From Tetrahymena elliotti 4EA (Eukaryota; Ciliophora; Oligohymenophorea; Hymenostomatida; Tetrahymenidae): a stretch of DNA of 64,000 nt. Position numbers and translations under genes: made by a program. This document shows, piece after piece, positions 10,008-41,522 of the stretch. The notes under the pieces are model-generated. The model was not told the origin of the DNA, searched no databases, and saw nothing but the letters and a program-made list of their open reading frames with translations. The DNA is taken from positions 425,890 to 489,889 of the forward strand of contig JH720339.1 in assembly GCA_000231825.2 (NCBI GenBank), in the 5' to 3' direction. How positions within the stretch are numbered: position 1 is the first letter of the stretch; each line of letters opens with the position of its first letter.

Positions 10008-10715
10008 AAAAATTAAAAAAATAGAAATAAATAATTAAATTAATTAAAAACAAGCCTATTTTTCAATAAAATTGGATAATCAAACCCAATTTTGTTTAAA
10101 ATAAGAATAGTTAATAAACAATTTAAGCAAATTTTCACAATCTTTAATTAATTATGTTTTAAAATTTGTTAAAAATAAAATGAAATTTATTATCATTCAA
10201 AAGTTGTATCACTCTCAAATTAAAAAATTTGTGAGGAGTAAATTAACAAAAGTACTAATTTCTTTTTAAAAACAAAAATTGTTGCTTTTATTGTTTTTTG
10301 TTATGAATAAAAAAATAATTTTAAAATAAATCTTATAAAAATTATTATATGAAAATTGTAAAAAATATTTTTATATCTATATATTTTATCAGCTTTTTAC
10401 AAAAATTTAATATTATTATATAATAGTGACAAACAAATTCAAAGCTCTGAAATAAATTTATTTTGCTTGGTAATAACAAATTCTTATTTTTAATTTTACA
10501 ATCCATATTAAACTTGATAGTAAAAAGGCTCCATGTTGCATTTCAAAAATAAATAAGTAAATAGTTGAATTTTAATAGCTTTTCAAGAAATAAAATAGAA
10601 GTTTTAATTTGATTTATTAAACTATTGAATAATAGAACAATCTATAAAATAATTAAGCAGGTTTAATTACAAGTAGAATTAATTAATTTGTTAGTCATTC
10701 GTTAATAATTCTACA
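10008..10715. other. Spacer between channel paralogues 1 and 2
   Basis: About 700 bp of AT-rich DNA between co-directional paralogues. No coding frame or RNA gene recognised; it must contain the promoter of paralogue 2 if the genes are separately transcribed. Confidence 0.5.
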
Positions 10716-15768: not shown

Positions 15769-18700
15769 ATGGAGAAAGAAGTAGAATTCTCATCAAACTA
15801 AAAAATCATTTTTGCAGAAAACAATTTTGAAAAATTAGAATCAAATTAAGTAAATATTGTTAGTTATTTGATAAAAAAGCTAATATTTTTAACTATTGAA
15901 CAGTTTAATAACTTTGATATCAGATTTGGAGATGTAAAAAGATAGTAGTGGTTAATTCAAGATAACTCTCACCATAAAACTTACAGTCAATCAAATATTT
16001 CAATAGATGAAATGGATGAAAATTTATGTAAGTTAAGGAATTTCCCCAACTATAATTTATAATCACCAGATCATATTAGATGCAAGAAAAATTCTGATTT
16101 TTTTGGAAACAAATTACCTTTAAAGTTAGAAACAACTATCAGTTAAGTAGATAGTTTTTCAATTTAGTAAAAATCTTTAGATGTTACATCAATCAATAGC
16201 CAAATAAAAAGAGGGAGGAATACTATGTACAAGCCATAAAAAGAGGATTCTGCAAATGAAATTTAACAAAAAAGATAAAAAGCAAAGAAAACTGATGAAA
16301 TGAAGAGAACCTCATAAAACAAAGCAGATATTCAAAATGATTCAGAATATCCAGATAAACAATTTATTAGTAAAGAAAAAGTGAACAAGGATAGAATTTG
16401 GACCACTAGATTTTTTCATATTCTCCTTTTTGTTAACAAGTTCTTATTTAGAAATAAAAAAAAGTTAATCTACTTTAAACCAAATCAGCTTCAAAATAAT
16501 TAAATAAATGCAATCAACGATATATGTAAATTACTTTAAAGTTTTATAATTACTCAGTTTTTTATTCATATTTATTTCATTTAATTTTCAAAAATATTTT
16601 ATTTATTTTGTTTAATCTTAACATAATAATATTAATAGCATACTAGCCAAATTAAGATTAAGAAAATAGAAAGACTGTTAAAGATAATATTGTCAGAAGC
16701 AAATTTAAATTCATCAGAAGAATTAGAATTTTATATTTAATTTTTAGAAAAAAGATTAAAATATGCATTATTCCTTTTGCAAATTTAAAAAATTAAATTT
16801 TATACACTTTAAGAAAAGTACTTGACCCTATTCCTGTTATTCTACCTTTCTAAAATATTTCATGGGGATGGGATTTGATTGTTATGATATTCATTTTAAT
16901 TAACTGTATTAAAATTCCTTTTGAGCTTTCATTTGACAATTAGGTTATTTCTATCGATTATTTCACTTAGGTTAGTAGATTTATTTTCTTTTTTGAATTC
17001 TTTATGATGTTCAACACAGCTTATTATGAAAATGGAGTATTAGAAAAATAAAGAAGCAAAATATTTTTTCACATTATTAAAAATAGATTAATATTTGAAG
17101 TGTTTGCCTATCTTTGCTTATGGTTAAATCCTTTTAGAATTCCTTTATTTAGAGTCTTTTTTCTATTTAAATTCTTCTAATTTTATGAAATTATTGAGAA
17201 ACTTGCTGAAACATTTTAGTTGTCATATAAATACAATTTTATAGTCAATCTAGTTGCCCTTTTTGTAGAAGTTGTCTTTTTATGCCATTTATTTGCTTGT
17301 ATTTGGCACTCTATTGGAGATTACTAAGTTAAGTTAGGCTAATATCCTAACTGGATTTCTAAATATAACACTGACAATAGTAGCGAATTTGAATAGTATA
17401 TCAATTCTATTTACTTTTCTGTTATAACAATTGGAACTATAGGGTTTGGAGATGTAGTACCTGTGAGTACTTTAGAAAAAAGCTGCTTGACTTGTATGGC
17501 AGTCTTTTCATGTGGAATATTTGCATATATTCTAAGTAATATTTAGAATGTGTATAGAGAATTTCAAATGAAGTAGGAAGGTTACCTTAGCAAGTTGTCT
17601 GAACTTAATAGTTACATGTTTAATAGAGAAGTAAATCCAACTCTCCAGTAAATGGCCAGAAAATATTTAAAGTATGTACATGATTAAGGTTTCTAATAAG
17701 GTGTAAAACCATGTGACACATTAAATTCTCTAAGTATCTCACTAAGAGAAGAGATTAAAGAAGATATTTTTAAAAAATCAATTAAAAGCATACCATACCT
17801 CTAATGCTTTAGTTAATAACTTAGATCTTAATTGTCAAGAAAAATGATTGAACTTAACTATGGTAAAAATACAATTCTTTTTTATCGTAAAAAAAAATTT
17901 GATCATGAAATGAATAAATTCAAATTTTAAATTTAAAAGAATTCACTCTTTTTTCCCTTTAAAAATTTAATTGACATTTTAAAAGGTATTTATTTTACAA
18001 TATTCTTCTTTAATGAAATATTTTTATTCAGAAATATCATTTACTTTCAAATTAATAATTTAATTTTTGTTTTTATTTACACTTAAAATAATTATTCAAT
18101 TTTAATTTAAATTAATTTAAGATTATGAATTACTTTTTTAATTCTAATAAAATTTTTAATTTTCTATCAAATATTTGTTTAGAATATTTCTATATTTAGA
18201 ATACATCTATCTATGCTGATTTTATATTTGGGAATTATTGAAGGATTATATTTGCATTCTATTTTAAAATACTCATTCAATTTCATTTAAAAAATATTTT
18301 TTAATTTATTCTTTTGAATATTATCCACAAAGATTTATTAATATTATAGATTTACTATTTTTTACTTAATTAGTTAATTTTTATTAAATTATTCATTTAA
18401 TTTTTTTAGGATAAAATTTTCTTTTTTATTATCCTCGTAAATAATTTAAAATAATTTTTTAAAGTTTTAAATGGAAGTTAATTTTTTTATTTAAATAAAT
18501 TTTAGGCCCTGATGAATTTATAATGAAGAGTGGTGAGAATTAAGGGCCAAGACTCTACTACATTTTAAAAGGATAAGTGGAAGTAGGTTTAGATAAAGGA
18601 TTTAAATTTGGCTGTTAGCTCATTAATAATTTAGAAAAAAATAAACCATTTAGCATTTATAAGCAGAATGATTTACTAGGGTTGTATGAATTTATTTCTT

Positions 18701-20004
18701 AATCTTAAATGTGCATGACAAATGCTAAAAGTATTGGAGTAACCACTGTTCATATTTTAGACTTGTAGGATTTTTTGGATATTATTAATTAAAACGGAAC
18801 AGATAAAGAAATTTATAGTTAGTAAAAAGACATGACCAACTTATATAAACATTTAGAATACACAAACCTCTTTTGTTATTCATGTAAAAGTAGTTAGCAT
18901 TTAATAAAAGATTGCCCTATTTTTTTCTATAAACCTAACAAATTAAGAGTTATAAATAGATTTAACAAGGAATAAGAATAATCAAGGAAAGAATTAAGAA
19001 AATAATCTAATAATAGATACAATTCTTTAGCAATAATGAAAGAAATAGGAAAAGATATTCAAGATTTTTGCTACGAAAATGAAACATTTGTTGATACGAT
19101 GTTTTAATCACTATCAGATATCGATTATGAGAAAGATGACGAAGATGAAGATGATAATTAACCTAAAAAAAAAGAAAGATCTTAAATTTAGATAGGGTCA
19201 TAGCCTAGTTTTCTATCTCCAGTTAAAGGAGAACTTAATTCAAAATTTTTTAATAAAACATAACTAATTAAAAAAGAATCTTCCTAAATTGAAGATGAAT
19301 TAATACCTTCCTCAAATTAACTAAAAGATAAAATTGAGTAGTTAAATCAAATAAATTTATTTGATATGAATGGTAAATTTGAAAATCGTGATAAAGACGC
19401 AGAGTTAGATTATCGGTAGTAATAAAATTAATTAGAAGGTAGTAATAATATTGTTAAAATAAATAGTAATATACATCCAAATAGAGTAAATAAAAATGTA
19501 ATGTTCAAAGCTTCAAAAAATAAAACTGATTTGATAGAAACAAACCAATAAAATGTTTCAAAAGTAAATCAAAGATCATCTGTGCCTAATATATTTGAAA
19601 AATAATTTGTTACTTAAAATCAGAAAGAAGAAAAAGAAGTTAAGATTTAAAGTAGAGTTTAAATTAGCAGCAGAAAATTAGATTCCGAACAATCATTAAA
19701 AACCTTAAATAAATCTCTTAGACGCTAAACTATTCGTTTGAGTTAAATCGAAAATGTATTAAATTAGTTTACTAAGTAAATTAATTAAAAAGATATTGGC
19801 AAATAAGATGAAGGTTTGGAGGAAACTTTAGCTGACACATTACGAATATATAGTCATTATATGACTCACACGAATGTAGGAGTAATTGTTTAGAAATTTA
19901 ATGAATATTAGCAGAAAAAAATTTATATAAAGAATCTAAAACATTTTGAAGCAGCATCTATTATTGCTAGTAAAAAAAATAGAAGTATTTTAGTTAAAAA
20001 TTGA
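15769..20004 (+). CDS. CNBD-type K+ channel, paralogue 3 (GFGD filter, zinc knuckle)
   Basis: Predicted K+ channel subunit, 1,159 aa, exons 15769-16525, 16639-17862, 18506-20004. Same exon plan as its two upstream paralogues, with exon 2 again 1,224 nt. Intron 1 is short here (113 nt), while intron 2 has grown to 643 nt. The N-terminal block DIRFGDVKRQQW matches DIRLGDIHRQQW of paralogue 2. The pore reads VITIGTIGFGDVVP with filter residues 518-524. The CNBD-like region is GPDEFIMKSGENQGP with loop MCMTNAKSIG, again lacking the usual Arg. The zinc knuckle lies at 18874-18915 (C784-x2-C-x4-H-x4-C). The tail is acidic in the middle (KDDEDEDDNQ) and ends with the family's conserved TLADTLRIYSHYM block. 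Probably co-assembles with or replaces its paralogues; this is inference. Confidence 0.92.
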
Positions 20005-20902: not shown

Positions 20903-23595
20903 ATGTCTGAGGAAGAACAGTCCGTTTTTAGTAAACTCTTAGCAAAAGATAAGCTTATTGAAGAACTTAGAACTTAAGTAAAGATTTTGTAAGATGAAAA
21001 GACTTCTTTAGAGTATATGCTTATGAAGTCCTCTGAGTAAATCAGAAAAATATAAGATGAAAATGATACTTAAGCTAGTAATAGAAGTGAGATTAATAGA
21101 GAATAAGAAAGGCTGAATGCAGATATAGAGCTTCTAAAAAAATAGGTTTAACTTGAAAAAATGAATACATAAAATTACGAAAGCTTGATAAATGGTTATG
21201 CTTAGGAATTATAGAAAAAAAATGAATACATCTTAAAATTGTCAGGATCTGTTAATAATGCTTTTAGTGTTATTAGAATATATTAAAATGTAGAGAAGGA
21301 AAAAAATGAACTGGAGGAATCTCTCAAGAAATAAAAAAAGAAACTAAAAAATCAAAAGAAAGAAAGTGAAAAATTATAATAAAAGCTAGGAGAATACTGT
21401 AATTATTATTTACAATTTATTCTGTTTTCAGAAGATTTATTTTAGGATTCATTTTTTTGGTTTGGATTGACATTATTTAATAATATTCTTTATATTGACT
21501 AAAAGTTAATGCCAAATAGGATCACCAAGGGGATTATGATGCAGTAGAGAAAGTGGGATAATTGATCTAGAATTTATAGGAATTAAAAAAGGAAAAATAA
21601 ACTTTATTAGATTAAATAGATTTTTGCAATTGTGAAAGCTTAAAATTAAAGAAAGAGTGTGAAGAATAAAAGAATATTGCAGTAGCTCTTAATAAAAAAA
21701 TATCATATCTAAAAATAGAGAACTTAAGTTTTAAAAATAAACTTGAACATGCAAATAATGATTTAAGGTAGCTGAACTCTTTTTATTCATAGGAAAAATA
21801 GACTACTTTAAAAGGTGGCTAAATTAATACTAGTTTTAATCAGAGAGCTAAGTCTTTAGATAATAGCTTTAACAATTACAATTTAATCTAAAAATATAAA
21901 ACAGAAGAATCTGACTGCAATTAAAGACAAGGGTTTGAATCCAATTACTTTTCTTAAGGAAACATAATTAAAACAAGAAATATTTCTTGCTCACCAACTC
22001 CTTCTGATCACAACAATAACCCTTAAAATAGTAATTATTTGACAATAAAGAATATTAGGGAACTTTATCAGAATAAACAATAGAATTTAATGAACTAAGC
22101 AGCAGAGCTTTTTTCAACTGAAAAACTGAAATATGTGAATAAAAAAGCATGCCTTAATTAATCTAATTCACAAAATATTCTTAGTTTATAGTAGGAATCT
22201 TTAGGAAATCTACCAAGATAAAAATCAAATTCATAAACATTAAATAATTCTTTTAGTTAATCAAAATAATTTTATACTTCTAAGGATGCAAGAGATAATT
22301 CAAACTAAATTTAGATCAATTTGAATAATCAAGAATTTAATGATAATTTTGCAGAAAATAATTAGAATTTAAATGGAAAAAATTCATAAGATGTAGTAAA
22401 GCAAATTCTTTTGAAAATAGAAGAATTAATTTTAAAAGAGAAAGTAGACAAAAACTAATTTAAGAATGAAGTAGAATCTATCATTGAACTAGAATTAGCT
22501 CAAGATGATAAAATTTTGTTAAATTAAATTAATTAAATTATTAAAAATACTACAGATTTGTAGGTTTGGGATAGTTTTAGTGTTGCTTTATTAGTTTAAA
22601 AGTTAGCAAGTTTAATATAAATTATATTAGCAAAACTGAATAAAGCTATCAAATAAAACATATAGTTATAGTATGTGATCGAAAGTAATGTACAAACTCA
22701 TCCTAATAATGATGCTTCATTTGTTGAAAAAGACATGCTTTCTGGATTTTCTTAAATCATAGAGTAAGTAGGAGGTGCTAAAGAGGAGGAACTTTCACAA
22801 GAATAAAAATCAAGAAAAATATAACTAAGCTTGAATACAAATCATATATCAATAATTAAAGAATTAGAAGAGCCTTAAACTAATAGTAAATTAACAGATG
22901 AAACTATTTTGATTGATAAGCTTGGGAAAGATTAAGATGCTTCAAAGTATAACAACAAAACTATTTAATAGGATGACATAAAGCATTTATTGACTGAATT
23001 ATAAGAGCTCAACTAGTCAACTGATTACAATTAATATGTTTAATTCTTTATAAATAGAAAAAGAAGTTAAAGTAAATAGAAGCCTTAAATAGTTAAATAA
23101 AATGAATAAAATAACCTGAAATAAGAGAATTAAATTAAACAAAATTAAATAATAATCAAAAAAAGTGAACAAATAATTTAAACTGATCCATTTGTTTGCC
23201 AGTGTAGTTAAAATTAATATTAAAGTAAACATGATAACTTAAAAGAAATTGATGAAGAAAGTTATGTAAATAAATTAAAAAAGTAAATGCAGTTATAATT
23301 TTCTAAAAAAGTGAAAGATCTCGAGCAAGTATTGCTCTTGATAAAAAGTTTTTTAAATGATGAAAAAGAAAATATGTGTAGCAATACTAAAAATAATTTA
23401 AATGGTTAAGAATGTGTAATAAATAGCCAAATGTAGGAAAGACTTTAAAAAATATATTAAAGTAACCCAAACCTAAAACCATTTATTTAAAATTTTATTG
23501 AAAAAATAAGTAATCTCAAAGAAATAAACTAATAATTATAATTAGAAATTAAAAAATATTAACTAAGTAACAAGCACATCAAACAAATAAGATGA
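20903..23595 (+). CDS. Coiled-coil protein of unknown function
   Basis: Not recognised as a named family. Two exons (20903-21398, 21506-23595) give 861 aa. The N-terminal 170 residues are strongly heptad-like (KLLAKDKLIEELRTQVKILQ, then EINREQERLNADIELLKKQV), indicating a coiled coil. The middle is Ser/Asn/Gln-rich with short helical blocks. The last 150 residues return to coiled coil (KKQMQLQFSKKVKDLEQVLL). There is no signal peptide or membrane segment, so a cytosolic or cytoskeletal scaffold is the most one can say. The 107-nt intron interrupts the first coiled coil and restores the phase exactly. It lies between the channel cluster and the pseudokinase gene, all on the same strand. Confidence 0.85.
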
Positions 23596-24097: not shown

Positions 24098-27000
24098 ATG
24101 AATATTGTATAGAAAAACGTTGAAGATTTTGAAATTTAAGAGCATCTATCTAGCTCAAACAATCAGAGTAACACATTTTAATGCATTGAGAAGTATTCTG
24201 GAGAAAGATTGGTAATGAAGAGACTCTTCTTCAAAACAAAGCAAGATAGGTTAGATGCTATAAGATAAATTTAGAAATATTAGTTTTTAGATTCAACCAG
24301 GTCATTAAGGTCATAAGAAGATGGATTTGATAATAACTTTTACATTTAAAGAACTCAAGAATATCCAGAAAATAATTATATAAATAAATATAAATACTAT
24401 GCAATAGATTAAAGATTAGATACTATAGATTTAATGTTATTTTAAGAGCCTTTGTAGCAGTCTTTGCAGGAAAAGATATAAAAAAAATCTAGATTTGAAG
24501 ATTATTTTTCTTCAAATGAAATGAAATGCCTTGTTAAATCTATTTTTTCAGCACTTGAATATATGGATAATAGATCCCTTGCACATTTTAATTTAAAACC
24601 ATCTAATATATTATTTACAAGCACCTTTGAGCAAGATTTCTATAAAGTTAGTGATTATGGCTTGGAAAGCACAGATTAGGCATCAAAATAAATTTGGGAA
24701 GTTCCAGAAATGTTAGAAGGAGGTGGCTATGGCTAAGATGTATTCAATATGTATAATTATGAAACCTTCAAAGAAGCATAGAACAGAAGATAATTTAATT
24801 CCTTAAATCCAAATCATTCTGAATACGATCCAATCAAATTTGATGTTTTTCGTCTTGGCTTGATTATCATCCAAGCTGCAACTTTTATTAGTAATGAATA
24901 ATTGCAATATTTTAAGTCAGACGATGATGTAGAAAATTAAGTAAGAATTAATATTGAGATTAAAAAATATAAAATTAATTAATTATTTTTTGATTATAAA
25001 ATAAAAAAATTCAGTAATTCAAAGATGATATTTTGGAAACAATTAAGCAAAGGTATGATAATGATTTGCATGATTTAGTTGTTAGGATGATTAATATTAA
25101 TCATGTTTTGAGACCCTATCCTTCTACTCTAAAGAAATAAATCCTCTAATATCTGCAATCAAAATATGTATTTCTTGGAGGACCTCAAGGCAAAGGCCCA
25201 CAAGATAATTTAAGTATATTAAAGATATTTTTAGACTTTCAATTTATATTTAAAAAATAATTTTAAAAGATAAAAAATTTTGTAGTGAAATTTATCAAAG
25301 AATTTTGAATGCAATTCTGGCTAAAAAGAAAACACCTGAACTCTATTTTTTAAAGTATGAAATGAACAAAGGTTTGAGGACCATTTAGTTATAAAATTTT
25401 GAGAGAGCAATTAGAAATCTTTAACTTTCTTTAACACCTTATGAATAAGAATTACTGATAAAGTCTTTATAAACCGACAAATACAACATGCTCTAAATTT
25501 CATCATGTAAATTTAAATAATTATTATTTGAAATTTAATAAATTATTTTTTTAAATAGTGGTCAATACTGAAAATAGTAAAGCCTTTCTAGTTGAAGTAA
25601 ATTTATTATCTAAAATTAAGGAATATAATTATTATGAATAAAATAGATTGAAGATAAACAAAGAATAAAATAATTTAGTTAATAAGATGAAGTTACTTAT
25701 GTAAAAGGAATTCTAGAATTAAATAAAGAGCTTAACAGGAAAGGTATAGCTTTAAGTTATATTCTTGAAGATAATAAAAGAATTAGTATTGAGTTTCTTG
25801 AAAAAGATGATTTCAATTTTTAGTTTAAGTTACACTAGGTTTAATTGCCTGAGTTCTTACTTGATTTGATATATAGAAAATTTAATATCAATAATGATGG
25901 TTTGATAGCATGCTAAGTATTTATTGATGATTTTATAGCTTAAACTTAAGGTAATATTTTAAATATTCTAATTTCTTTTGCCTCTTCTTCTCATCCTTAA
26001 TTAAGAATAGGTGAAAGAGAAACTTAAAATAAATTTAAAAAATAATATTAAAAAATTTTTAAATTAATTAAAATGATAAGTTTCTGATGACGAGTATCTT
26101 AAAGTAGTTAGATAAATATTTAATATTATCAGAGAAAAATATTTAACTCTTGAGAATTTTTTCAAGTCGTATGATAATAAGAATTAAAAATATATTGTTG
26201 AGGCTGACTTTAAGGAATTTCTCGAAGAAACATGTTTTACAGTTCCAGAGAAATTGTATTCATTAATTGCAGAGAATTTAATGACAAATAGTGATGAAAA
26301 AATCTATCTTTTGAATTTATATTAATTTTTCAACTAAATTATTACAGAATTGCTTTCAGCTTTCTTTAATAAATTAATTTCGGATCTTTAAGGATAAAAC
26401 TTAAATCTTTAAAAAATCTTCTAAGATAACTGCAGCACTTAAAATCCATTTGTAATATAAATAGAAAAAATTGGCTAATCTTTAAATGTTCTAAGTAATT
26501 AATTTGTTTCTTTTAAATGAATAAAAATAAATTACATTATAACTAAAATAGCAAATGAGACAAGGTAGTATATTAGGCAAGATGAGTTAGCTTTTATTTT
26601 CAATATACTTGGTATAAGAAAAGATATTCATGGATAAGTTAATTATGAAAATATGTGTTAGAGTTTTTATGAATGGTGTGAGGAAAATGAAATTAGATCA
26701 ACAGATCATTTATGTGATTATAAATTAATTAAAAAAATTAGAACTTAAAAGGATGAACTATAAACTGTAAAAGGTAAAATTGGCCTATTATCTTTTTAAA
26801 TAGCAACTAGGCTGAAAAGATTCAAACAGGAAGATGTGATAGCTTTTTTTAGAATATAAAAATCTAAAGATCCTCTCATGTCCTTTTAAGAATTTAACTA
26901 GAAAATATAAGTTATAATGAAACTTAAAGAAGAAGATAGCATTTTGATATTTAAGCACTTAGATAAACTAAACATAAAAGCAGTTTCAAGCATCATGTTT

Positions 27001-30000
27001 TTACAGTTTGCTTAATTTAATATTGAATATCTTGAAGAAGAGATAGAAACTAAACTGATTAAAGGAATGGATGCAAAAATATTTAATCGCCATGAAAAAT
27101 TTATTGAAGAGATCCTCTCATTCTTAGAAGAAAAAAATGAAACTATTGACAGCTATTTTGCATCTGATTCTGGTTACATTCACACGGTTAATTTCAGGTA
27201 AATTCTTCTTTTTATTTGTTAAATTTTTTTTATCTCAATAAAAAAACTCAAAACTTCTGAATTGTTTTTAATCTTAATATAACAAAAGATATATGCTGAT
27301 AGATTTAGATATAAATCTAACATACTACAAAGATGATTTAAATGATTTGATATCTACTTTATCAATCCCTTCTGATCCAAATAATATTAACATAGAATTA
27401 TTTCGTGACATTATGTTATACTTCTAACAACACAAAGCCAAAAAAAATGCCCTCAAAGGAGATGGTATTGAATTCGAAAACATTCATTTTGCTATTTAAT
27501 GGTTTATCTAAATTTATAATTAATTAAATTTGATGAACCTCAACTTTGATAAAACCTTTTTAAGGTATGAGGATCGCAACCACGAAATCTCATTAATTGT
27601 AAATATATTTTTTCTTATTGAAAAATATTTAATAAGTCCAACAAATAAAAAGATTTAATTTTATTAAAATAGAATATGGATCATGTTATTTTTAATACTT
27701 TGAAACTTAAAAGAGATTATGCCTATATTTTCTTTTAGAAATTTGTTTAGAAGGATAAAGAATATGCTTCGCTACATAAAATAAAGTAAGGCCTTGATAA
27801 AGAGGAGCTATCTTTAAAAGGTTTGAAGGAAATAACTTTATTAACTAGATAACAGAGTATCAGCATAGATTAATTATTTGTGAGGTTTAATACAAATCAT
27901 GACTCTACTATTGACATAAATGAATTCAAAGAAATGGCTAGAATTATTCATCCTACATTGCCTGAAGAAGTAATCAATCATATATTCTTACGTATAGATC
28001 TTTCTGGAGATGGTTATATAACAGCCCGTGAATTTAAATAATCTCTGTTTGGCTCAATTTCTGAATTTATTTAAGAAGATGAAACACAATTCCATGCTTT
28101 GTTTATAGAAGAATTATAAATGTATGAAATCTTATTCATTGGCTTTATTAATCTCATTTTTATATACCAAAAGCTCTCTGATGAGATAAAACTTGAGTCT
28201 AGAAGATTACTTGAAAGATATTAACTTTAAAGGTGTTATATTAATATCTGAATTTCTCAATAAATTGAAAAATTTAGGTTATGATATCCAAACCAATAAA
28301 CTAAAAGTAATTTATTAAGCATTATCACATAAAATAACTTTTTTAAATGCTATAATTAAAAAGGTTGATTCTCTTTTGAGTAGAATCAAGAAAGATGAAA
28401 ATACAATCTACTTCTTAGAACTTAAATCTGTTTTTCTTGAATATAAAAAAGATGAAACAGAGCTGAGAAGAAAAGGTCTGATAACTGAGCAAGAAGAAAA
28501 AAATTTACTTGCTTATGGCTAATTAATAAGAAGAGAAATGCAAAGAAATAAGCACACTTTTGATACTATCTTTAGATCAAAAAAGCTAAAGAATTCAGAA
28601 TTAATCACAGAGTAGCAAGTTAGAAATTATTTAATTTTTGATTTGGAATTGAATGATGATGCTCAAATGAAAGCATTCTTTGATCATTTGAAGAGATAAA
28701 ATTTAAATAATGTTGGGAATACTAATTCAAGTAAACTTTTATAATTTTTTAAGCTTATTCTTAAAAGATCTATTAAAATAATTAAGATTCTGGATTAGTC
28801 AATTTAGATGACCTTGAAAGACTTATTTATGGGTACAAATCTCAAGACGAAATTAAGAAAGCTGCAAATCAAAAAGATTATCATGTAAAGTTTGAGACAT
28901 AAGAAGCTAAGAAATATGCAATCACTTTAAATCAAAATTTATTAGATGAATTGATTTAGTTCATAACAAAAAATAATTACATCAAAAAAGAATTAGATGA
29001 AATAGATTCTTCTTCAAGAAAGTAGATAGAAAGAAGATCAGGCTAAGTAACAGCAGAAGAATTTAAAAAGGTTTTAAATGAAGCTGGAAGGTATAAATTA
29101 AAAATAATTTTCCTTTTAAATTAAAATGAGCTGTTCTATTAATTTTAATTAGGTATGCTAGAATGGAAGATGTAGTATAACTAGCTAATTACTTTGGTTG
29201 TAATAATGATGGAATTTTTTTTTATAAGCGTTTGTTAGAAGAAATAGAAAGGGAAACTAAAATTAGACATGTGCAAACAAATAAAGACATGTCTGTTAGA
29301 GATTTTCCAATTGAATTTAAATAGTTCTGTATTAAATTAAAAAAAATGTTAAATGAAAGAGGTTTGAATGTGATTGATTTAATTAAAAAATATTATAAAA
29401 GCATTACAGATAATTGGGTTTATGAAAGTGATTTATGGTATGCTTTTAAAGTTGAATAAATTCATATTGAATACGAACAGACAAGATAATTAGTTTAGCA
29501 ATTACCATACAGAAATGGCAAAATCGATTATAAAATTATGAATGAACTTATTTTTGACTACTTCAAAGATGAAAATAGACTATCCACTTAAGATAGCTAT
29601 CAAGATGAAGAAGAATATCTCTAGGGAGGTTAAAAAGTAATAAATGCATTTAGCTATTATTATTAAGTTTATTAATAAAAAACTTTGTTATTTAGGTTAG
29701 AATGATTATTACTGAGGATGTTCGCGATCTATTCAGAGAAATAAGAAAAGAATTTTAATCATATATGTAGAGAGAAAATATTCCTTTGCTTGTACTTTTC
29801 AAAAGATTAGATTTAGAAAATGATGATTTGTTATCTTTTGGAGACTTCTTGAAAGGAGTTAGTTCCTTATTTCCCAATGTCAATTTGTCAAACTTAGAAT
29901 TAGTTTAGGCTGTATTCAATAAGTTTGATAAAAATCACGATACAAATATTGATTACTAAGAATTTAAGGCTGCTGTATTAGAGGACTAAAGAGATGTCTA

Positions 30001-33000
30001 AGTCAAGCCTCTTCTGAAAAAAATAAAAAATGTAATTTGCAATCAACAATAATTTCAATCAAAAATTCTTATCAAAAATAATTTTAACAGATTTTAGACT
30101 TGAAAACGGAGGAATAAATTACAGCTTAATTTGAAAGAATGGACTCAGATAAAAGTGGAACAATAGGCTTTGGTGAATTTAGCTAAACATTAAAAGAAAT
30201 TGATTTCCGTTTCACTTAAGAAGAAATATTAGTATAAAATTAGCTTTATTTTAAAAAATTTTCCAAGCTAACAAAAAATTCAATTCAAAGAATATGATTT
30301 AGAAACAATTTGGAGTCTTTTTATCATTATTTCTTGATGTTCTCTGTGCTATTTATTAAAAAAAATATTTAAATAAAAAAAGGCACTATTTGAGTTTTTT
30401 GATAAAGAGGACAAAAAGCATATTAGTTATCACTAGTTCATATCAATTTTAAGTGATAGCCATCTAGATTTTTTGGTATGTTTATTTTTTCGTTAGTTTA
30501 AAGAAAATAAAATTTAACTTGTCTAACTAATTTAGAAAATTAGAGAAAAGATTTTTGAATATTTGAAGAATTAGAACATACCTATGGAATATTTCTTTAA
30601 AAGGTATGTGATGAGTCAACAATAATATTTTGATAATAGTGTTATGAACTATGAATAGTTCAAAAAAATGATGAGAGATCTAAGTTTTCACTTCGATGAT
30701 GGATAATTGGAGGAATTATTTTGTTATTTAGATGAAAATAAAGACTTTGAAATTTCGATTGAAGAATTTAAGAGTAAAATATTTGAATGTAAAATAGACA
30801 TCAATAAAGCACTAAGAAGTATCAGAAGATCTATTGTTTAAGCTGAATTTGATATTGAAGAGACAATGAAAAGCAAAGATATACATAAAACTGGAACTAT
30901 TCCATATCATGTATGGGTCAAGTTATTGAAGTAGTATGGAGTTGAAATTAAGCCCATAGAAATGGAAGCAATATATAAATTTTTCTCAAACAACAAAGAA
31001 AAAGAACTTGATTACATGTAAAATTTGATTAAATTTTTAATTTTCAATTTAATGTCTTTAAAATCAAAAAAGAGCCTTTATAAATGGCATGATTAGCTAA
31101 ACATACAACATTGAAGATATTTAAGAAAAAGTTCTGAAAATGTGCAAAAAATATAAAACGGAGCCAAATAAATTGTTTGAATTATTTGATGAAAAGAAGG
31201 ATGGAATGCTTGATTTGCATGAATTTGCATAAATGTTAGAAAATTTATAAATTATTCTTTCCAATTTTGAACTGAAAGAAGCTTACCAAGCCTTTGATTT
31301 AAACAAGGATGGTTAAATTAATGCTAATGAATTTAAGGCTATTATTGAAGGTAAAACATATTCTAATAAAATGTCATTGCAATAGTTAATCAGTTAAAAT
31401 TACTATCAAAAACAAAAAATGAATTATAACAACATTCATAATTTGATTTAAACTACCAACTTTGATCCTAAGGCTCCTAAATAAAGTTTAGAGAATGATA
31501 GCTAATTGAAGTAAGAATAATTCATTTAGAAATTCTTTCATTAATGTAAAAAAATAAATAATAGATAAGTGCATATCTAAACAAAATAGAAAGAATTCTA
31601 ATCTCCGAATAAGCTAGACAGCATGGTTGAATTTCAAAATTTCAGTCCAGGAAATAGTGAAATGGGTAGTCCACTTCGTTAATCTTCCATCATTAAATTT
31701 AAAGTACTACCAACTTCATCTAAAAGAAGACCTGGTCTTGAATAATTTAATTTAGACTAGTATATCTAACTTATTGTGAAATATGCTTCAGAAGATGAAA
31801 TTCCAATTTTTTAGCTATTTTCATAATTTGACGAAAAAAAGAGTTTTAAATTTTATATTACTGGAGTGTAAAAAGTATTCTAATAGCTCAGAATTGATGC
31901 AGATGAAAAGCATATTGGCTAATTCTTCCAAAGTTCTACTCTTGGTAATGATGGTTGCTTTTACTATATACCTATTTTGAAAAAAATATTATAGCCCCCA
32001 AGCTTGCTTTAGTAAATTTTGCTGTTTTCTATAAAAGCAAATAATCTCAAACCATAATAATATTTCTAATTAGTGAGAGAAAATAGTAACTCCTAAACAG
32101 TCGATATGGATCATTGGTAAATAATTTTATCTATATAATGATTTATTAAAATTAATGATAAATAGGTCTTTAGCAGAAATTATTTTCTTAAATCAAAATA
32201 TGAATTTAGATTTAGAAAGAATGTATCTCTAAGAGGCTTGGAATAATTGGCTTTTTTCTATAGGTTGCTCAGGTACAATAGATGTCAAGGAGTTTATTGA
32301 ATTGCTTGGAACAGAAGCTATCATCATGGGTGGTGAAGATGCCTTGTCTGAAGCTCATTCAGAAACAGAATTAAAAAAAGCTACAGAGGAAATTTTTACT
32401 TAATTAAGATAAATTTACATCAAATTTGGTATTAATCTTCATGATGTGTTTACAAATTTTGATGCTAAAAAAGATTATTCAATAGATTCAAAGAATTTAT
32501 AGAAAGTACTTTAAACTATTTATATATAACCAGATAAGAGTTAGCTTGATCATTTCTTTAACATTTATAAAGATCACACTGGTAAATTCAGATATGTCAA
32601 TTTGCTTAAGGAAATCTAGCAGTAAATTTAAATAAAGTTTTATTTTTTTTTCTAATTTTTTAAATTTAAAATAAATAGCTTTGATGAATTATTTAAATCA
32701 ATATTGATATTTATCATCCAAGCCAATAAGCTAAGCTATAAAAGTTTCTTTGAGACTCTTAAAAACCAAGACAATAGAAGTGTTTATTGGGGAGTTGATG
32801 AATTTGTTAAAATTTCAAAAACTTTTGGTTTCTAATTCACAAATGATGAGCTAGAATAGTTGGTATATGAGTGGGGTAAAAAAGTAAGAGGAAAACTTTC
32901 TATCTTCGATTTAGCAGTAGCACTTCATCTAAGTATTGATATTTCAGCCAAAGATATAGAAATGTTGTACAAAGAAAGAGTGAAAAAGACATTTTAAGCA

Positions 33001-36000
33001 ATCAAAGATTAATAGAGAGATATTAAATAATCTCTAGAGTAATAACAATAAATTATGAGTATGCACTTTGGAAATACAGGAAATTTTGATGAAAGTGATA
33101 AAATAAAAATTAACCACTATGTAAATGAGCTAAGTCAATATGTTAATGATCACAACTTTTTTGATCCTTTTGAATCTATGGCTAAAAATGGTTAACTCAA
33201 CTTTAATGATATTTTTGAAGCACTTAGAAATGGTTATTCTATTTTCTAAACCTAAGAAGATATCAAACTATTAGCCAGTAATAAATTCATCTTATTTTGC
33301 ATTTTAAAAATGTTAATTTCAATTTTACAAAACTGATTTGCTTTTCACAAAATCTTTCAATAAATGTAATAAAAAAATTGAAAATTTTATACTCAAATAC
33401 TTTTTTTGAATTTAATTAAAATTATTCCTCGTTTGTATTTTTTATGGATATTGATTATTATTATTTTATAATAAAAGGATGGCTGTGCTCTGATGGACCA
33501 ATTCTAATTAGTGAGTTAAGTAGATTGCTTAAATATGATAAGGAACTTAAAAAAAAGTAAGAAGAAAGAGAAAAAGAATAAATCGAGAAGATTAATTAAG
33601 GTATAAATATTGGAAATTATGCTAAAGAAGAAGTCAACATACACATGGCAGAAATAACTTTGAATGACTTAATTAATACATTTAAAAGAAATACAGATAC
33701 AATTATTAGTATTTACTTTGGAGATAAAGACTATGTTATATCAGCAAACGAATTTGTTCAAATTACTACAAATGCTTGTTCAATAATAGATCCTTACTAA
33801 GCTTTTAATTTATTTAACTTCATTGATGTTAATAACAGTGGTACTGTTACTAAAAACGAAATGCTTATGCTCTTTGGAAATGCAGTATCTAAAACAACAA
33901 AAGAAGAGTAATATGAAAAAATAAGAGTATCAAAAGATGTAAACAAACAAATTGAGTAATTAATTTACTTAAATTAATTTAAAATTATTCATTGAATTGT
34001 GAAATTTTTAATTCATAAATGAATTATGCTTAAAATAATTTATTTTTATGTTTAACAAAAAAGGAATATGTTTGTTTAAGTTGATAAAGATAAAAGTGGT
34101 TTTATAGATTATCGTGAATTTGATTAAATGTTACGTAGCATAGGAATATTTTGTAGTTAAAATGAACTTTTAAAATATTTTGCTGTTTTTGATACAAATA
34201 AGGATAGTAAAATTTCTTTTGAAGAATTTAAAGGTGTAGTTAGTGAAAAATTAATGGAAGAAGTTATGTCTGCTGAAGATATTGTAGAAGATTTGAAATT
34301 ACAATTTTAGAAAGCTGACATTAATAACACTCGTTTACTCAGCAAGCCACAATTAGGGTAAATAAACTAAATATTTAAAAAAGAAGGTTATGCACATTTT
34401 TTATTTAATAAAAAAAAAGTTAAGTGTTTTCTAACCTTGGAATCACTCTCACTACTTAAGATCTAAATGAATTATTTAAAGTAATTGATGCTGACTCATC
34501 AGGTGCTATAGACATTGATGAATTCTTGTATTTCATCAAGAGTAATGGATCACAATTCACTGGAATAGCTACAAATATTTTATTAAATGTAACATTTGCT
34601 TATTTTAATTAAATTTTAAGCTTAATTTTCCTTCAATTTTATTAGATAAGATCAGCTAAGACACTGAATATTAATGATATGAAGTCTATGTTCTCTAATT
34701 TTCCTAACAGCTTTTAAATTTCTTTTACCAAAAAGAAAAATAAAAAAAGAATTAATCTTCCTAGTGCGACTATTAAGCCAAAGCTAAATAACTATGATAT
34801 TTATGAGGGTTTTAGATACAATATGAAAGAATTAAACAACAGATATAGATCTAATTCTGTAATTGATAGATTTTTCGTCCCTCATAAGCTTAATTGTGAA
34901 ATTAAGTTAGATGTTGCAACAGGAATACCTATTCCAAAAGACTAAATAAAGCCAGCAGACATTATTAGTAGACATGTTTATGTTACATTTTTTGACACAA
35001 AAAAACATTAAATATTTGGAAATACTTGTAGAATTCCTGTTAAATGGGATCCTAACTATGAAGATAGATGGTAATCATTTATCAAATTTTTGTCTTATTT
35101 ATTTAAATTAATAAAAATAGGAATTTTAAATTTTCTGAGAATTTGATTGACAATTGCATCTTAGTTAGACACGCTAATTATGAATAGACTAGGGATATGG
35201 ATATTATGCTTTGCTTTGAATTTGTTATAAGCATTAAATTAGAAAACCAAAAGGCCACAAATCTCTAACTTTATAATAATCAATAGTCCTTAAATAAAAA
35301 TAGTATCTATGATAGTTTTGTATTAACGACACCCGACTTTGAAGTTTCTTGTTGTTATGGACTTGTTGCTCTCTATGATATTTTAAAATCAGGATCAAAA
35401 ACAATTAAACTTCATGGAGGTACTCCTATCAGAGAAATAGATATTGAAAGATAAGATATAAGTGCTCGTCGCTCCGGATGGAGAAGTGTAGTCAAAGCAG
35501 TTTCTGGCTAAATAAAAACAACTTTAAAATTTGATATCAGCAGATCATTCCCTGATGAAGAAATTTATGAAATAGCTGCTATTCCAGATACTGTAATTAT
35601 ACCTAAAAAGAGTTTGAGTTTAGTTAAATCGTTTAGGGAATATGCTGCAGCTAAATCTGTTAGACCTGATCTTACAATTAACACAAAAATGCATAATCTT
35701 ATAGAAGTAAAAACATTCTAAAGATGCATGGACTGTCCTGATATCTTATATCCTCTTTCAAAGTTCTGGAAAGAATAAGTCTAACCATTTGTAAAGGAAT
35801 ATTAAAAAGAACTTGATGTATTTGCAAGTTTAATGTAAAAATTCAATCTAATTATTTAACACAAAGGATTCAGATTTAATAACAGCGATCCTTCAGCAAC
35901 TTATTATGCATTCCCTTAAGTAACTTATTCAAGAAAAGAAATGCTTGACTAAATGTTTTAGGAATTTAAAGATTAACACTAATTAGAAGTAAGACCAAAA

Positions 36001-36319
36001 GCTAACCCAAAGACATAATAATCATCATAACAGTCTTCAAAGCCATCAAAACCTACTAATAATAATTAGTAATCTTTAATTAAAAGAATATTTCTCATTT
36101 TTTTTTTCTTTAATGAAATTTTTATTTTATTAAAAAAATTTTTAAAAATTCTTATGAATCATTTTTTTATTTAAAAGATAACTTGGATTCGATGCTCTTA
36201 ATTGTTACGAAACATTCACTATAGCTGATATCTTAAGTGATGACGAAGATAGTGATTTTGATATGTTTGAAAATTACTTTTAGCAAAAGAATAAGATATC
36301 TTAGACCTATTTACTTTGA
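24098..36319 (+). CDS. Giant pseudokinase / EF-hand array / nephrocystin-1-like protein
   Basis: About 3,483 aa from 25 exons, phase-consistent throughout (first 24098-24940, last 36178-36319). Residues 25-290 form a kinase fold with the lysine motif LVMK (K41), DYG (D186) and HFNLKPSNI in place of HRDLKPxN, so the catalytic Asp is Asn165 and activity is doubtful. At least 13 EF-hand loops follow, for example near 27885, 27995, 29930, 30145 (MDSDKSGTIGFGEF), 31185, 31290 (DLNKDGQINANEF), 34080 (VDKDKSGFIDYREF) and 34480 (DADSSGAIDIDEF). After about residue 2,980 comes a C2-like strand set (HVYVTFFDTK). Then a region like the nephrocystin-1 C-terminus: LHGGTPIREIDIE, and later MHNLIEVKTFQRC before CPDILYPLSKFWKEQV. 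Suggests a Ca2+-responsive scaffold, perhaps at the cilium base. The many small exons make individual borders uncertain, for example 25559-25596 and the optional 60-nt intron 30476-30535. The C-terminal assignment is tentative. Confidence 0.8.
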
Positions 36320-36542: not shown

Positions 36543-39500
36543 ATGTTTAGGTAATTAGTTTCTGTTAATTTATATAAACGAAGTTATCTAATTCTATTAT
36601 ATTTTATTTATAGGAAGAACTAATAAACTTATTCTTATAATTATGAAAACTACAATTCTACTTAAGACAAAAATAATAGTGAATTAAATGAAAAAAATAA
36701 CTATTATTATCAAAATTCTTAGAGTAATTTTAGAAATTCAAGCTAAAGAAATGATTATCATTCAGAAAGATAATCATAAGACAATTCGTAATACTTTCTT
36801 TTGACAAATTTTGGTTTAACTTTTAAATTTTAGTAGTAATATAGGTTCTGAAAGAAGCTTTGGAGAGCAACAAAACTATTAATCTTATTACAATGATTAT
36901 AGCTAAAGAAGTAGTAAAACTAATCCAGAAAAGGATTTAGGAAATAAAAAAGGATAAAGTTAATACAGTAGCAATAGCTTATAAGTAAGTGATAAAAATT
37001 ATTTTAAAAATGATAGTAATTAAACAAGTGCTATGCCATCAATTGATAATTTATATGAAGGATACTCTAAAAAATCTTATGGTTTAAGTATTAAAAAAAA
37101 GTAATCGTTAATTTTTAAAAACGAGTTATTTTATCAAGAATTTATTTAATTTTAGTAAATAGTTCTATGAATAATATGGAAATGATTCAAAGAAAAGCAA
37201 TAACTATGAAGATTATGTTAAAGAGTAACTTATTATAATTCTACTAAATATAACAAAGAAGCATTAAATAAAATTGAATAGTTCTCCTTAGAATAAGAAA
37301 GGAAACACAAATGATAATTAATATGACTTTTCATTTGAAAAAAAATAGAAAAAGAAAAATAGTGATGATGGTTATGGTCTAGACCTTGAAAGTAAAATTT
37401 AATGTTTTTTCAATCAAATTGATTATTTATTTTATCTAAATTTAAATAGATTCATCTTCAAATTAAACATCTTAGAGAGATTTATTTGAGAATCAGAATG
37501 GCTATGATGTGTCAGATGGTTAAAGTGATGACTCCTTAAATATTAGTGATTTAGAGGATGAAAATGAACTTAGAGTTAAAAGATATCAATCTAAGTTAAG
37601 ATTTGAAAAGAGATTACAAGTTGAATAATGTAATTTTATTTGTAAATAAATTTAACAAAAATTTATCATTTTAATAGGGGAAATTGAATACTCTTACAAA
37701 AAGTTTAGAGCAAATATTAATTAAATAATGAAGAAAAAGCAAATTAATTTGAGAACTATTTTTAGATAGTTTGATACTGATAATGATAATTTTATTTCTT
37801 ATATTGATTTTTGTAGAGGTATTATTAAATTAAAAGTATAATCCTTTGGTTTTAAAAGCAATTATAAATGTATTAAAAGGATTTAGCTAAATCAATAGTA
37901 AGAACCATATATATTTTAATTTGGAGGATTTTGATTTAATTACTTGTTTGTTTGAAAGATTGGACATAGAAAAATAAAAGAAAATATCTTTTGATGCTTT
38001 TAGACAAGCCATTTATAAAAACAAAGAAGATAAACTTTAAATAAAGAATTTGCTAAATAAAATAAGAGTTCATTTTAATCAGAAGGACAAAAGTAATCTA
38101 AATTAACTCTTTACAGAATTTGATAATGATAAAGATGGATTCATTTAATTCAATGAATTCAAGTAGATAATGCTGAAGTTTGAACTAGAGCCGAAAGAAA
38201 TAGATGTAAGAAAAAGAAAGTATTCAACTACTTATTTTATTTTTATAAATAGGATCTATTTATTCATTTTGATAAGCTTAAAAAAAATGAAATTGCTTAT
38301 GAGGAATTTTAAAAAGTTTTATTTGAAGATTATATGATTTAATCAAATATTTCAAATACAATACAAGAATACATTGGAGAAAAAGCGATGTCTTTAAGAC
38401 AACTTTATGATAGTTTTTGTGAAATAGAAACAAAAGAACTAAAAATAGGCTAATATGTAAAATTGATGAAACAAATTGGATTCAAATATTAAGATTCAAT
38501 TATTGAAGAAACTTTTGATTTTTTTGATGCTGATAAAAGCGGATCAATATCTTATCAAGAATTTGAATAGGTTATTTATGAGAAAGATACTTCCTAAAAT
38601 CAAAATAATATCAGTAGAATCTCTGTTATCCTTAGGTCCATAAGAAGATAAACATTAACAAAGGGTATTGATATATGCTTAAAACTAAGGGCAGTTAACC
38701 ATAGGTCTAAAAATCGTTTAAATTTTAGCTCTTTTTGTGAATGTCTGAGAGATGTTAATGTTGATTTAAAATAGTTTGAAAAGGAAACTGTTTTTAAAGC
38801 TTACACTAAAGAGTAAATTAGATTATTTATTTTCTTAAAATCCAATTTAAAACTTTTAAAAATAATCTTCATTTTTCACTTTTCTAAGAAGGTTGAAATA
38901 TGTCTGCTTTGGTAGATATTTTTAAATAATTTTTACTATTTTGTTGACCAACAGGTTTTGATTGAGAGATATTTATTTTAATTAGAATTTACTTTAATTT
39001 CACAAATTTATTTTTGAAATATGAAATTATTTTGTTAATAAATATTTTTGACTAGAAATGAATAGGATTACTTAGATGTTGAAAAGATGATTGATGACTT
39101 ACAATAATAGAAGTTTGATATTACTTTTATAAGAGAAAGATTATTAGCAAATTTAAGAAGATTTAACTTAACATATGGGCAGCTATTCAGCTTTTTTGAT
39201 GATAATAAAAATGAGACCATAAATTATCAGGAATTTTGTTAATTGCTTGATGTTATTTAAGTTAGGCTCTCAACTGAGGAAAGCTTGGAGGCTTTTGCTA
39301 CTTTTGATATAAATTAAGATGGAGATATAACTTAAGATGAGTTTATTCGTGTCTTAGAAGGTAATTCAAAATTTCTTTTTTTTGAGTTGGTATTTAATGT
39401 TTTTTATAAAAAATAGGTAAAGAAGTTAACCATGAGATTAGGTTTGACTAAATGATGAATAATCTAAAAGTTTAGTAGAAAGCTTAATAACCAAAAAATT

Positions 39501-41522
39501 TAATTGAATTACTTGAGCATAAAGGTATCAAAGTTGAGGGACTTTAAATTAAAGATTTTATGAGTAAATTTTTTAATAAATTTTAAAGGTTAATAATATT
39601 TTACAAAAAAATTAGGTTAGAGTGTAAATATCATTTTTATTACATATAAAAAACCAACTAACAAGGTAATATTATGAAAAGGAGGATCAAAGAGACACTG
39701 TTAAATAGATACCACAAGACAGCATTTATTTTAACTTTAATTCAAATTCGATTTAAGGAAAAATTTTACAAAATTAGCTTTCTGAAATGTATTTAAAATT
39801 TGTGAAAGAAAAACCAAGTGATTTAAAAGAAGAATTTGATTTGAATTATGTGCTAGATTATATAATATTTAATATCCAATAATAGAATATAGATTTTATT
39901 CACGAGTTCATTAGAGCTGACGTTTAGCATTATTGTGTTTTAACATCTGTTACAGATTTTTAAAACATATTATAGAATATAAATATTTTCTTTACTAAAG
40001 AAATTATAGAATAGCTTTATCTCCTCTTCTTGAACTCTCAAAATTAATTTGAATATATTAAATTTTCTATGAATATTTACAATCCATTTTATCTATTTAA
40101 AAGAATATTCATTTATTAAATGCAAGTAAATTATTTATCATTTTTTATGAAATTAAATTTGAATAAAAATTAAAAGATAAAGAATTTTGGCTTAGCTGAT
40201 ATCATTTTATCAATTAAACAATTTAGTTAAGATAAAGATTAAAACAAAGATAGCTCTTATGAGGAAAATTTAAAAATAACTCCAGCTGATTTTGTTGACT
40301 ATTGCTTGCAAACATATTTAACATTTGACAAAAATAGCTTTTAATATATCTGGACAAAATTAAATCCTTCAGAAAATGAAAGTATAGGAATAGAAGATTT
40401 TGCATTAGGATTATAAATTCCTTTTAATTATCATCCTTTTATAGATATTTAAAATTTGGCAGAACACTAATTAGAAGTGATTAATGAGTTCTGTCATTTG
40501 ATGGCTAAAAGCTCATAAGATAAAAATGTTAATGTCATAGAGTTATTTTTATATTTTGATAAAGAATGCTCATTTAAATTAAATAATGCTTGCATTTTGT
40601 AAAAAATTGCAAATATTCTTTAAGTAAAAAAATTTCCAACTTTAATATGAAGATTGATAATATTTTTATTAAAACATAAAGATTAGGATGTCTAATTTGG
40701 AAATAAAAGCTATTTATACTTATCTCTCATAAAGTGATCCTTGTGGTTATATGCCCTATATAGAAATTGTTAAAAAAACTTAGCTCTCTCATATCTATTT
40801 AAAGAGTATCCTTATTATTTTTTTGAGAATGGAAAATTGGACTTTGAGATAATTTTTTGATCATTTTTAAAAGTATTTTAACTTACTTATTTTTCTAATT
40901 AATTATATTAATTAAAATATATTTATTTTTTAGAGAAAATATATGGGACTTATAAATACTAAAATAAATAATTGGATATGCTAAAATAAAAAATTTATCA
41001 AAAGATATTGAAAAAACTTTTAAAATATGGTCAAATAATAAAGAAAGTATTAATATAACTGATTTAGAAAAAATTCTAAACATTCAAGAAAATTAGAGCT
41101 CTAAATAAATAGAAATAGATTTTTTAAATAAATAGAACATGAACATAAAGAATTATATTCACTTAATTGATGTTGTTCCTTCTTCAAATCCCAATCATTA
41201 CTTATATTACTATATTAATGAGCCAACTACTGAGTTTTTGTATAACTAAAAGAAAATTCTTTAGCTTGGAGAGTAATTTGAAATGGAATAAAGGAAAAAG
41301 GAATTTAGAGGTGGAATATTATCAGAAGAAGAAGAATTGAATATTGCAAGAGCAGCTTCTATTCTAACATAATCTACAGCTAAAAAGGGAAGTGGAGATA
41401 ATTTTCCTATGGTCAGAAGTAGGTAGAGCACTTTACAAACACCAAGAAAAAGCATTTAAATTTAAAATCCACTCAATTAGTCAAGAAAATAATCAAGCTT
41501 TTTTTCTAAATTTAATAAATGA
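36543..41522 (+). CDS. Multi-EF-hand protein with low-complexity N-terminus
   Basis: Predicted Ca2+-binding protein, about 1,358 aa from 14 exons. The proposed first exon is only 8 nt (ATG TTT AG at 36543-36550), followed by 36614-36787 and so on to 40934-41522. Residues 1-300 are rich in Asn, Ser, Tyr and Gln with acidic patches. EF-hand loops follow near 37765 (DTDNDNFISYIDF), 38115 (DNDKDGFIQFNEF), 38520 (DADKSGSISYQEF), 39190 (DDNKNETINYQEF) and 39300 (DINQDGDITQDEF). The C-terminal 550 residues look like degenerate EF-hand pairs without full loops, then a basic Ser/Thr tail. There is no kinase domain. It begins 223 bp after the giant EF-hand gene, on the same strand, and repeats its EF-pair style, so the two may be relatives. 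The microexon start needs transcript support. Confidence 0.8.

Follow-up and report, generated by a model that had tools for sequence, protein, structure and literature searches.

Nephrocystin-1 (NPHP1) is a human kidney-disease protein found at the base of the cilium, and its loss causes nephronophthisis. The present work concerns a gene of Tetrahymena elliotti 4EA, the predicted product of which combines a pseudokinase domain, a long EF-hand array and a C-terminal region homologous with the nephrocystin homology domain (NHD), the C-terminal domain of NPHP1. The gene lies at positions 24098..36319, on the forward strand, of a window of 64,000 nucleotides (positions 425,890 to 489,889 of JH720339.1, called contig C47 in our genome-wide searches). 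The calcium-dependent protein kinases, in which a kinase domain is followed by EF-hands in one chain, are another described system with which this protein is compared.

Barker et al. 2014 (PMC4092220) restricted NPHP1 to opisthokonts, with E-value limits of 1e-10 and 1e-15, and a study of the Paramecium transition zone scored NPHP1 as absent (PMC7093003). A table in the Ichthyophthirius genome paper of 2011 (PMC3341644) lists one NPHP1 each for Ichthyophthirius, T. thermophila and human; the assignment was based on earlier identification or on reciprocal best BLAST, and in the portion concerned neither the gene nor its architecture is given. In mammals, NPHP4 is bound by the C-terminal 131 residues of NPHP1, and in pull-downs the isolated NHD captures NPHP2, NPHP5 and NPHP8 (PMC8104407). 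Tetrahymena NPHP4 forms two rings of nine clusters, one on the distal and one on the proximal side of the MKS rings (PMC8041816).

The C-terminal domain and its relation to NPHP1

The NHD-like region covers residues 2946-3355 (34715..35994, +) and was delineated by BLASTP, profiles and hhalign. A first-pass annotation of the locus had pointed out two C-terminal blocks, KLHGGTPIREIDIE and CMDCPDILYPLSKFW, and had likened them to the C-terminal homology region of NPHP1; both blocks are present and align with those of the relatives described below. A Pfam scan of the protein gave nothing useful for this domain, and PDB searches returned at first just three chance matches at E ~1 and then, with a profile, none at E <= 10.

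The domain was compared first with a provisional NPHP1 stretch and then with the human database sequence (P0001). The best database match of the provisional stretch was human NPHP1 (99% identity, 95% of the query covered). The window C-terminus matched this stretch by BLASTP with an E-value of 1e-8, co-linearly over 286 amino acids (aa), and the NHD matched P0001 with an E-value of 4e-8, while the paralogue on contig C40 reached 1.2e-14 over 337 aa. A profile made from the three ciliate paralogues (C47, C40 and C1) scored human NPHP1 at 43.9 bits, the best of 20,000 shuffles reaching 10.9 bits, and a five-sequence profile gave 40.1 bits (best shuffle 14.8). Furthermore, 120 of the 120 nephrocystin-1 database matches listed were scored by the NHD profile, at 33.4-46.1 bits; these rows, mostly named mammalian nephrocystin-1 with a few unnamed or hypothetical proteins, are close kin and not independent tests. 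Profile-profile comparison with hhalign yielded Prob 97.5 and an E-value of 5.1e-12 over 243 columns. Residues ~320-603 of NPHP1 were aligned with the NHD of the window protein and its paralogues, and residues 244-580 with that of an environmental eukaryote (P0127). These comparisons show homology between the last ~400 aa and the NHD of NPHP1; the profile test which the first-pass annotation had proposed for its parallel was thus run and passed.

No SH3 domain was found in the window protein (five pieces, Pfam at E <= 1), nor in the full-length T. thermophila and Paramecium tetraurelia relatives P0122 and P0126 at E <= 0.01. Four SH3_1 matches elsewhere in the genome, considered as the genome's true NPHP1, were rejected with no NHD beside them: scored by the NHD profile, the six-frame pieces of these loci (7-8 kb) did not exceed 8.1 bits, compared with 95-237 bits for the NHD exons of C40 and C1. 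The term nephrocystin-1-like, used for this C-terminus at first, thus holds for the NHD but not for a full NPHP1; judged from its sequence, the protein belongs to a wider NHD family and, on the SH3 domain, falls outside NPHP1 proper. Apart from the shared C-terminal NHD, the two differ in length, NPHP1 having 614-735 aa in most listed rows and the window protein being about five times longer. They also differ in what precedes the domain, namely a coiled coil, a Glu-rich stretch and the SH3 domain in NPHP1 (PMC8104407), and the pseudokinase and the EF-hand array in the window protein.

Several observations weigh against the kinship with NPHP1 or against its functional extension, among them the missing SH3 domain. 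At 22-24%, identity to NPHP1 is low; on its own, the C1 paralogue matched NPHP1 with an E-value of only 0.005, and a human NHD query of the T. elliotti genome retrieved only C40, at E 0.47. A database search with the 504-aa C-terminus gave no match at E <= 10, the full-length relatives being outside its length range. The profile match stops near NPHP1 residue 603 (envelope), covering the first part only of the 131 residues that bind NPHP4, and a likeness between the two C-terminal tails, noticed by eye, was rejected when the tail hidden Markov model failed to recover the NPHP1 tail. In structure predictions, the mean predicted local distance difference test score (pLDDT) was 39.8 for exon 26, aligned with three homologues, and 39.9 for ferret NPHP1, aligned with seven mammalian sequences, most of the NHD parts being below 50. 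Finally, the NHDs of the window protein and of T. thermophila gave weak BLASTP matches to NPHP4, with E-values of 0.018 (24 aa) and 0.021 (33 aa).

Low identity, the short NPHP4 matches and low-confidence structure predictions on both sides leave room for a generic C2-like fold in the C-terminal domain, similar to NPHP1 by convergence or distant C2 kinship and sharing no partners with it. We consider this quite improbable, as the similarity is co-linear over 240-340 residues and includes parts past the C2-like start (the PD..W block), as all the listed NPHP1 rows score whereas NPHP4 parts do not, and as the profile retrieved no chain from the PDB at the limit given above. The NPHP4 comparisons were made with a provisional N-half of human NPHP4 and with parts of an oomycete NPHP4 (P0128); neither was reported at E <= 20 with two ciliate NHD profiles, and NPHP4 was dropped as the true relative of the C-terminus. 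A distant kinship between the NHD and NPHP4, which would also weigh against the NPHP1 assignment, may nonetheless exist.

Downstream of the NHD, the protein ends in a low-complexity and acidic tail (35995..36316, +), in which most ciliate members share the motif F-[TN]-[IV]-x-[DE]-[IML]-[LM], followed by an acidic run and basic residues. The motif was aligned in the window protein, T. thermophila, T. utriculariae, Paramecium and C40, Paramecium having L in place of F. Together with the acidic run, it is a possible docking motif.

A single gene and its relatives

Under genetic code table 6, in which TAA and TAG specify Gln, the gene (24098..36319, +) has 27 exons and encodes 3426 aa in an open frame. 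Long frames are open under this table; a reading in the standard code was rejected, as it left just two frames of >=70 aa within 22-38.5 kb. The start (ATG, 24098), the stop (TGA, 36317-36319) and the + strand are those of the first-pass annotation, whose count of 25 exons had to be corrected. All on the + strand, exons 1-9 are located at 24098-24940, 25015-25213, 25270-25506, 25559-25596, 25647-25950, 26081-26494, 26552-27197, 27289-27598 and 27673-28121; exons 10-18 at 28174-28306, 28364-28730, 28787-29090, 29153-29636, 29696-30031, 30091-30231, 30383-30475, 30536-31017 and 31073-31510; and exons 19-27 at 31565-32116, 32166-32621, 32679-33277, 33478-33955, 34064-34357, 34420-34588, 34646-35070, 35121-36068 and 36178-36319. 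Every intron of this final model is GT-AG.

The exon model was obtained with a home-made gene finder, which was retrained, followed by hand merging and by correction against the T. thermophila protein P0122. This last step moved three exon edges (around 30475-31073), so that the gene model and P0122 are not fully independent; the unedited model, before this correction, had the same layout already. Some of the searches (among them Pfam, the first PDB and C-terminus searches, the genome search with the window NHD, the first NPHP1 BLASTP and the full-length database search) were carried out with an earlier model of 3438 aa, the differences from the final one being confined to residues ~1767-1950.

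Upon alignment with P0122 (3429 aa), the window protein showed 84.8% identity over 3424 alignment columns, with five indels of 1-2 aa, and its identity to the T. utriculariae protein P0121 (ABPG72_015095, 3427 aa) was 84.7%. Because the alignment with P0122 runs from end to end, one gene spanning 24098-36319 is well supported. The introns are AT-rich, short exons are difficult to predict, the model rests on genomic sequence, and the gene finder merged neighbouring genes at relaxed settings, all of which could have caused a tandem kinase gene, EF-hand gene and NHD gene to be read as one. Such an artefact is nevertheless extremely improbable in view of the end-to-end identity with a single T. 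thermophila protein, of the T. utriculariae and Paramecium (2733 aa) counterparts, every comparison protein being itself predicted, and of the C40 matches, which run co-linearly along the window protein from residue 112 to residue 3347. The first-pass annotation's single gene is therefore retained; given the orthologues and the co-linear paralogue, two separate genes are very unlikely.

The genome searched for paralogues (G000) comprises 89.95 Mb in 134 contigs. Among the best candidates scored, NHD queries from the window, human, C40 and Paramecium found three loci only, on C47, C40 and C1. The C40 paralogue (C40:12001-32000, L009 and L010) is co-linear with the window protein from the kinase to the NHD, and the C1 paralogue (C1:3263001-3273000, L012) aligns over the last EF-hands and the NHD. 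C40 contains an insert rich in Arg and Asp as well as a Gln-rich stretch, neither of which was observed in the window gene. At the C1 locus, the model continues past the NHD into a leucine-rich protein with membrane segments; this part is probably the following gene, joined on by the gene finder.

The full-length database search, with residues 2770-3370 of the earlier model as query and proteins of about 1890-6016 aa only, gave 8 matches, and an NHD was detected by profile in four of them (P0121, P0122, P0126 and P0127). Three others (P0123, P0124 and P0125), which have EF arrays with EF-hand families only and no NHD score, were discarded, and so was the Phytophthora cactorum protein P0128 as an NHD relative, at -1.5 bits with the NHD profile. 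In the databases, the relatives are named 'EF hand protein' (T. thermophila P0122), 'hypothetical' or 'unnamed / Protein kinase-like domain'. P0122, P0121 and P0126 have in common with the window protein a kinase-type start, the EF array, an EF quartet, the NHD and the acidic tail, and they are its orthologues or near-orthologues, P0126 being shorter and having HCR and DFN as kinase motifs. Thus the architecture is not unique, as the first-pass annotation, which knew of no described protein of this kind, might have implied; still, a description of kinase, EF array and NHD together was not found in the literature searched, which consisted of the accessible portions of open-licence papers.

The environmental eukaryote protein P0127 (from an ENA contig) also has the EF array, the EF quartet and the NHD (112.8 bits), the latter matching NPHP1 244-580 with an E-value of 7e-10. 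Unlike the window protein, it contains no Pfam kinase family; its EF-hands begin at residue ~55 and number 23 at a domain independent E-value (i-E) <= 0.01. The combination of EF array and NHD thus extends beyond the window gene and, since P0127 has it without a Pfam kinase, the kinase may have been added in ciliates. The NPHP4-like P. cactorum protein P0128 (PC121_g14207), which matched a provisional human NPHP4 sequence with an E-value of 1e-43, is a ciliary protein of the NPHP module with a long EF-hand array, as is proposed for the window protein. Here, however, it is NPHP4 and not the NHD that carries the EF-hands, the array lying between two NPHP4 blocks (821-937 and 2452-2989). Because this Phytophthora NPHP4 has an EF array of its own, the sequences suggest that Ca2+-binding arrays joined the NPHP module more than once.

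In NHD trees, the window gene grouped with the two Tetrahymena proteins, and NPHP1 stood apart, both with good support; the remainder consisted of long branches. Set against the papers cited above, the NHD finding contradicts the two absence calls, and one table agrees on an NPHP1-like gene in Tetrahymena; the T. thermophila NPHP1 of that table (PMC3341644) may be one of the NHD genes found here.

The pseudokinase and the EF-hand array

The N-terminal domain (residues ~1-345, 24098..25206, +) was recognised by Pfam PF00069 with an E-value of 3e-11 at residues 111-318, and its Pkinase score was 43.6 bits for a cut-off of 31.7. At residues 163-165 (24584..24592, +), the sequence reads HFN in place of the catalytic HRD, bearing out the kinase fold with this very substitution proposed at first pass. 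VMK (K41) and DYG (186-188) are retained, with the beta-3 Lys and the DYG Asp present. A kinase fold by profile together with a lost catalytic residue characterises a pseudokinase, predicted to be inactive.

By eye, the HRD position is occupied by HFN in T. thermophila and T. utriculariae, by HLN in C40 and by HCR in Paramecium, and the motif was not recognisable in the C1 paralogue. Because HFN, HLN or HCR also occur in the Tetrahymena orthologues, in C40 and in Paramecium, the loss of the HRD Asp is old. The DFG motif is lost or altered in C40 and Paramecium, which reads DFN. When the N-termini were scanned alone, the Pfam Pkinase scores were 49.5 bits for Paramecium (in which the kinase had been missed in the full-length Pfam scan), 26.1 for C40 and 20.8 for C1, the last two falling under the cut-off. 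Between the window protein and Paramecium, identity is 26% in the kinase, 38% in the EF quartet and 32% in the NHD.

The order of domains raises the question of a diverged kinase of the calcium-dependent type with an acquired foreign C-terminal domain, in which the kinase would be the working part, perhaps with unorthodox catalysis, and the EF-hands would regulate it. As in the calcium-dependent protein kinases, a kinase-type domain precedes the EF-hands in one chain; the window gene keeps the beta-3 Lys and the DYG Asp, and by Pfam score every ciliate copy has a kinase-type N-terminus, those of C40 and C1 being below the cut-off. The HRD Asp of active kinases is, however, absent from the window, T. 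thermophila, Paramecium and C40 copies, with no recognisable motif in C1, and DFG is lost or changed in C40 and Paramecium. Moreover, the kinase is less conserved in Paramecium than the EF quartet or the NHD, P0127 combines EF array and NHD without a Pfam kinase, and the window array, with 11-15 hands over ~1850 residues, is joined to an NHD. We therefore hold a working kinase of this type to be improbable.

The EF-hand array extends over residues ~1062-2907 (27865..34543, +) and contains 11-15 EF-hands with degenerate EF-like spacer sequence between them; Pfam EF-hand_7 was found with an E-value of 1.6e-42 at residues ~1736-2934 of the earlier model. Counted with a home-made profile, the window protein has 11 EF-hands at i-E <= 0.01 and 15 at < 0.5, whereas 100 shuffled copies of it had on average 0.03 and 0.44 (maximum 1 and 3). 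The figure of at least 13 given in the first-pass annotation is within this range, but it is not reached at the stricter limit. At the same two limits, 12 and 15 EF-hands were counted in T. thermophila, and 10 and 14 in Paramecium. Strict canonical EF loops number 9 in the window protein (1000 shuffles: mean 0.6, maximum 4), 10 in P0122 and 10 in P0126. Several canonical Ca2+ loops beyond chance are thus present, and Ca2+ binding is predicted.

At the end of the array, a quartet (EF, EF, degenerate EF, EF) with its linker (residues 2759-2945, 33927..34714, +) adjoins the NHD. The same junction was seen in six of the six sequences aligned (the window protein, T. thermophila, Paramecium, C40, C1 and P0127), and the identity of quartet and linker to T. 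thermophila is 87%. The conserved core of the family is thus an EF quartet, one hand of which is degenerate, joined to the NHD.

The next gene downstream (36543-41522, +) encodes a predicted protein of ~1300 aa with 5-7 EF-hands, in which no kinase or NHD was seen. It is co-linear with the EF array of P0122 (residues 1590-2505; 23.5% identity, E 1.7e-48) and matches the window protein itself in short pieces only (best E 4.6e-7). From these alignments, it appears to be a tandem partial paralogue with the EF array only. Upstream, the gene immediately adjacent (20903-23595, +) has a product which looks coiled-coil by eye, and 7262-20004 (+) contains about three tandem genes whose products resemble, also by eye, cyclic-nucleotide-gated channels, with the K+-channel-like pore signatures TIGYGD and TIGFGD.

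A putative role at the ciliary transition zone

The window protein is best regarded as a ciliate member of the wider NPHP1 (NHD) family and, with about an even chance, as a giant transition-zone scaffold with a Ca2+-sensing array, anchored via NPHP4. We propose this because of the partners of the mammalian NHD and NPHP1, the NPHP4-like stretches in the genome and the link between Ca2+ and ciliary shedding. Two stretches of the T. elliotti genome match an NPHP4 region: C39:121705-125070 (L026), with 30% identity over 118 aa, and C4:911729-915067 (L027), with 41% over 51 aa; among the best 150 of 340 EF candidates scored, no EF-hand match lies within 70 kb of either. Concerning shedding, deflagellation of Chlamydomonas is triggered by a Ca2+ rise, normal shedding in Paramecium needs CEP290, RPGRIP1L and NPHP4, and Paramecium RPGRIP1L, a transition-zone protein, bears EF-hands (PMC7093003).

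From the homology, the architecture and their conservation, we infer a location at the transition zone, NPHP4 binding, Ca2+ switching and a part in shedding. The NHD would dock on the NPHP module, first of all on NPHP4, and the EF-hand array, chiefly the quartet joined to the NHD, would bind Ca2+ and thereby alter the shape or the partners of the scaffold. At the far end of the chain, the pseudokinase would serve as a non-catalytic docking domain. In this way, Ca2+ spikes at the base of the cilium could be relayed to the transition zone, gating and Ca2+-triggered shedding being two processes in which this might happen.

Two points weigh against the Ca2+ part of this proposal. Numerous EF-like units of the array are degenerate, and Paramecium RPGRIP1L without its EF-hands still works in shedding (legend of S6 in PMC7093003). 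Because those EF-hands are dispensable, the trigger does not have to lie in the EF-hands that a transition-zone protein bears.

The protein might also be situated elsewhere, as an NHD-containing Ca2+-responsive scaffold of the cell cortex or of basal-body fibres, the NHD then being a general protein or membrane docking domain and the EF array serving Ca2+ responses of the cortex, contraction or exocytosis for example. The three diverged family loci, among which C40 has large low-complexity inserts, and the neighbouring partial paralogue consisting of an EF array only would suit this location, and transition-zone proteins can act outside the cilium too (Barker et al. 2014). Against it, mammalian NPHP1 joins proteins of the NPHP module through its NHD (PMC8104407), and NPHP4-like stretches are present in the T. 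elliotti genome. A cortical location is accordingly possible, although we would not expect it.

In its broadest form, the transition-zone scaffold proposal would make the SH3-NHD form of opisthokont NPHP1 one branch of an older eukaryotic family, the usual non-animal form of which would be EF array, EF quartet and NHD, serving the ciliary gate as a Ca2+-gated arm. The form found in ciliates, with its added pseudokinase, would then be the missing Ca2+ sensor through which a Ca2+ spike leads to remodelling of the transition zone or to shedding. This extension is speculative and, for the moment, unlikely.

The occurrence of the NHD at three Tetrahymena loci, in Paramecium and in an environmental eukaryote alters the picture of an opisthokont origin of NPHP1, and it places the family in organisms able to shed their cilia on demand. 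Through the EF-hands joined to the NHD, Ca2+ and the transition zone would be linked directly and in a way open to testing. The family thus reaches past animals, and it may connect calcium with the ciliary gate.

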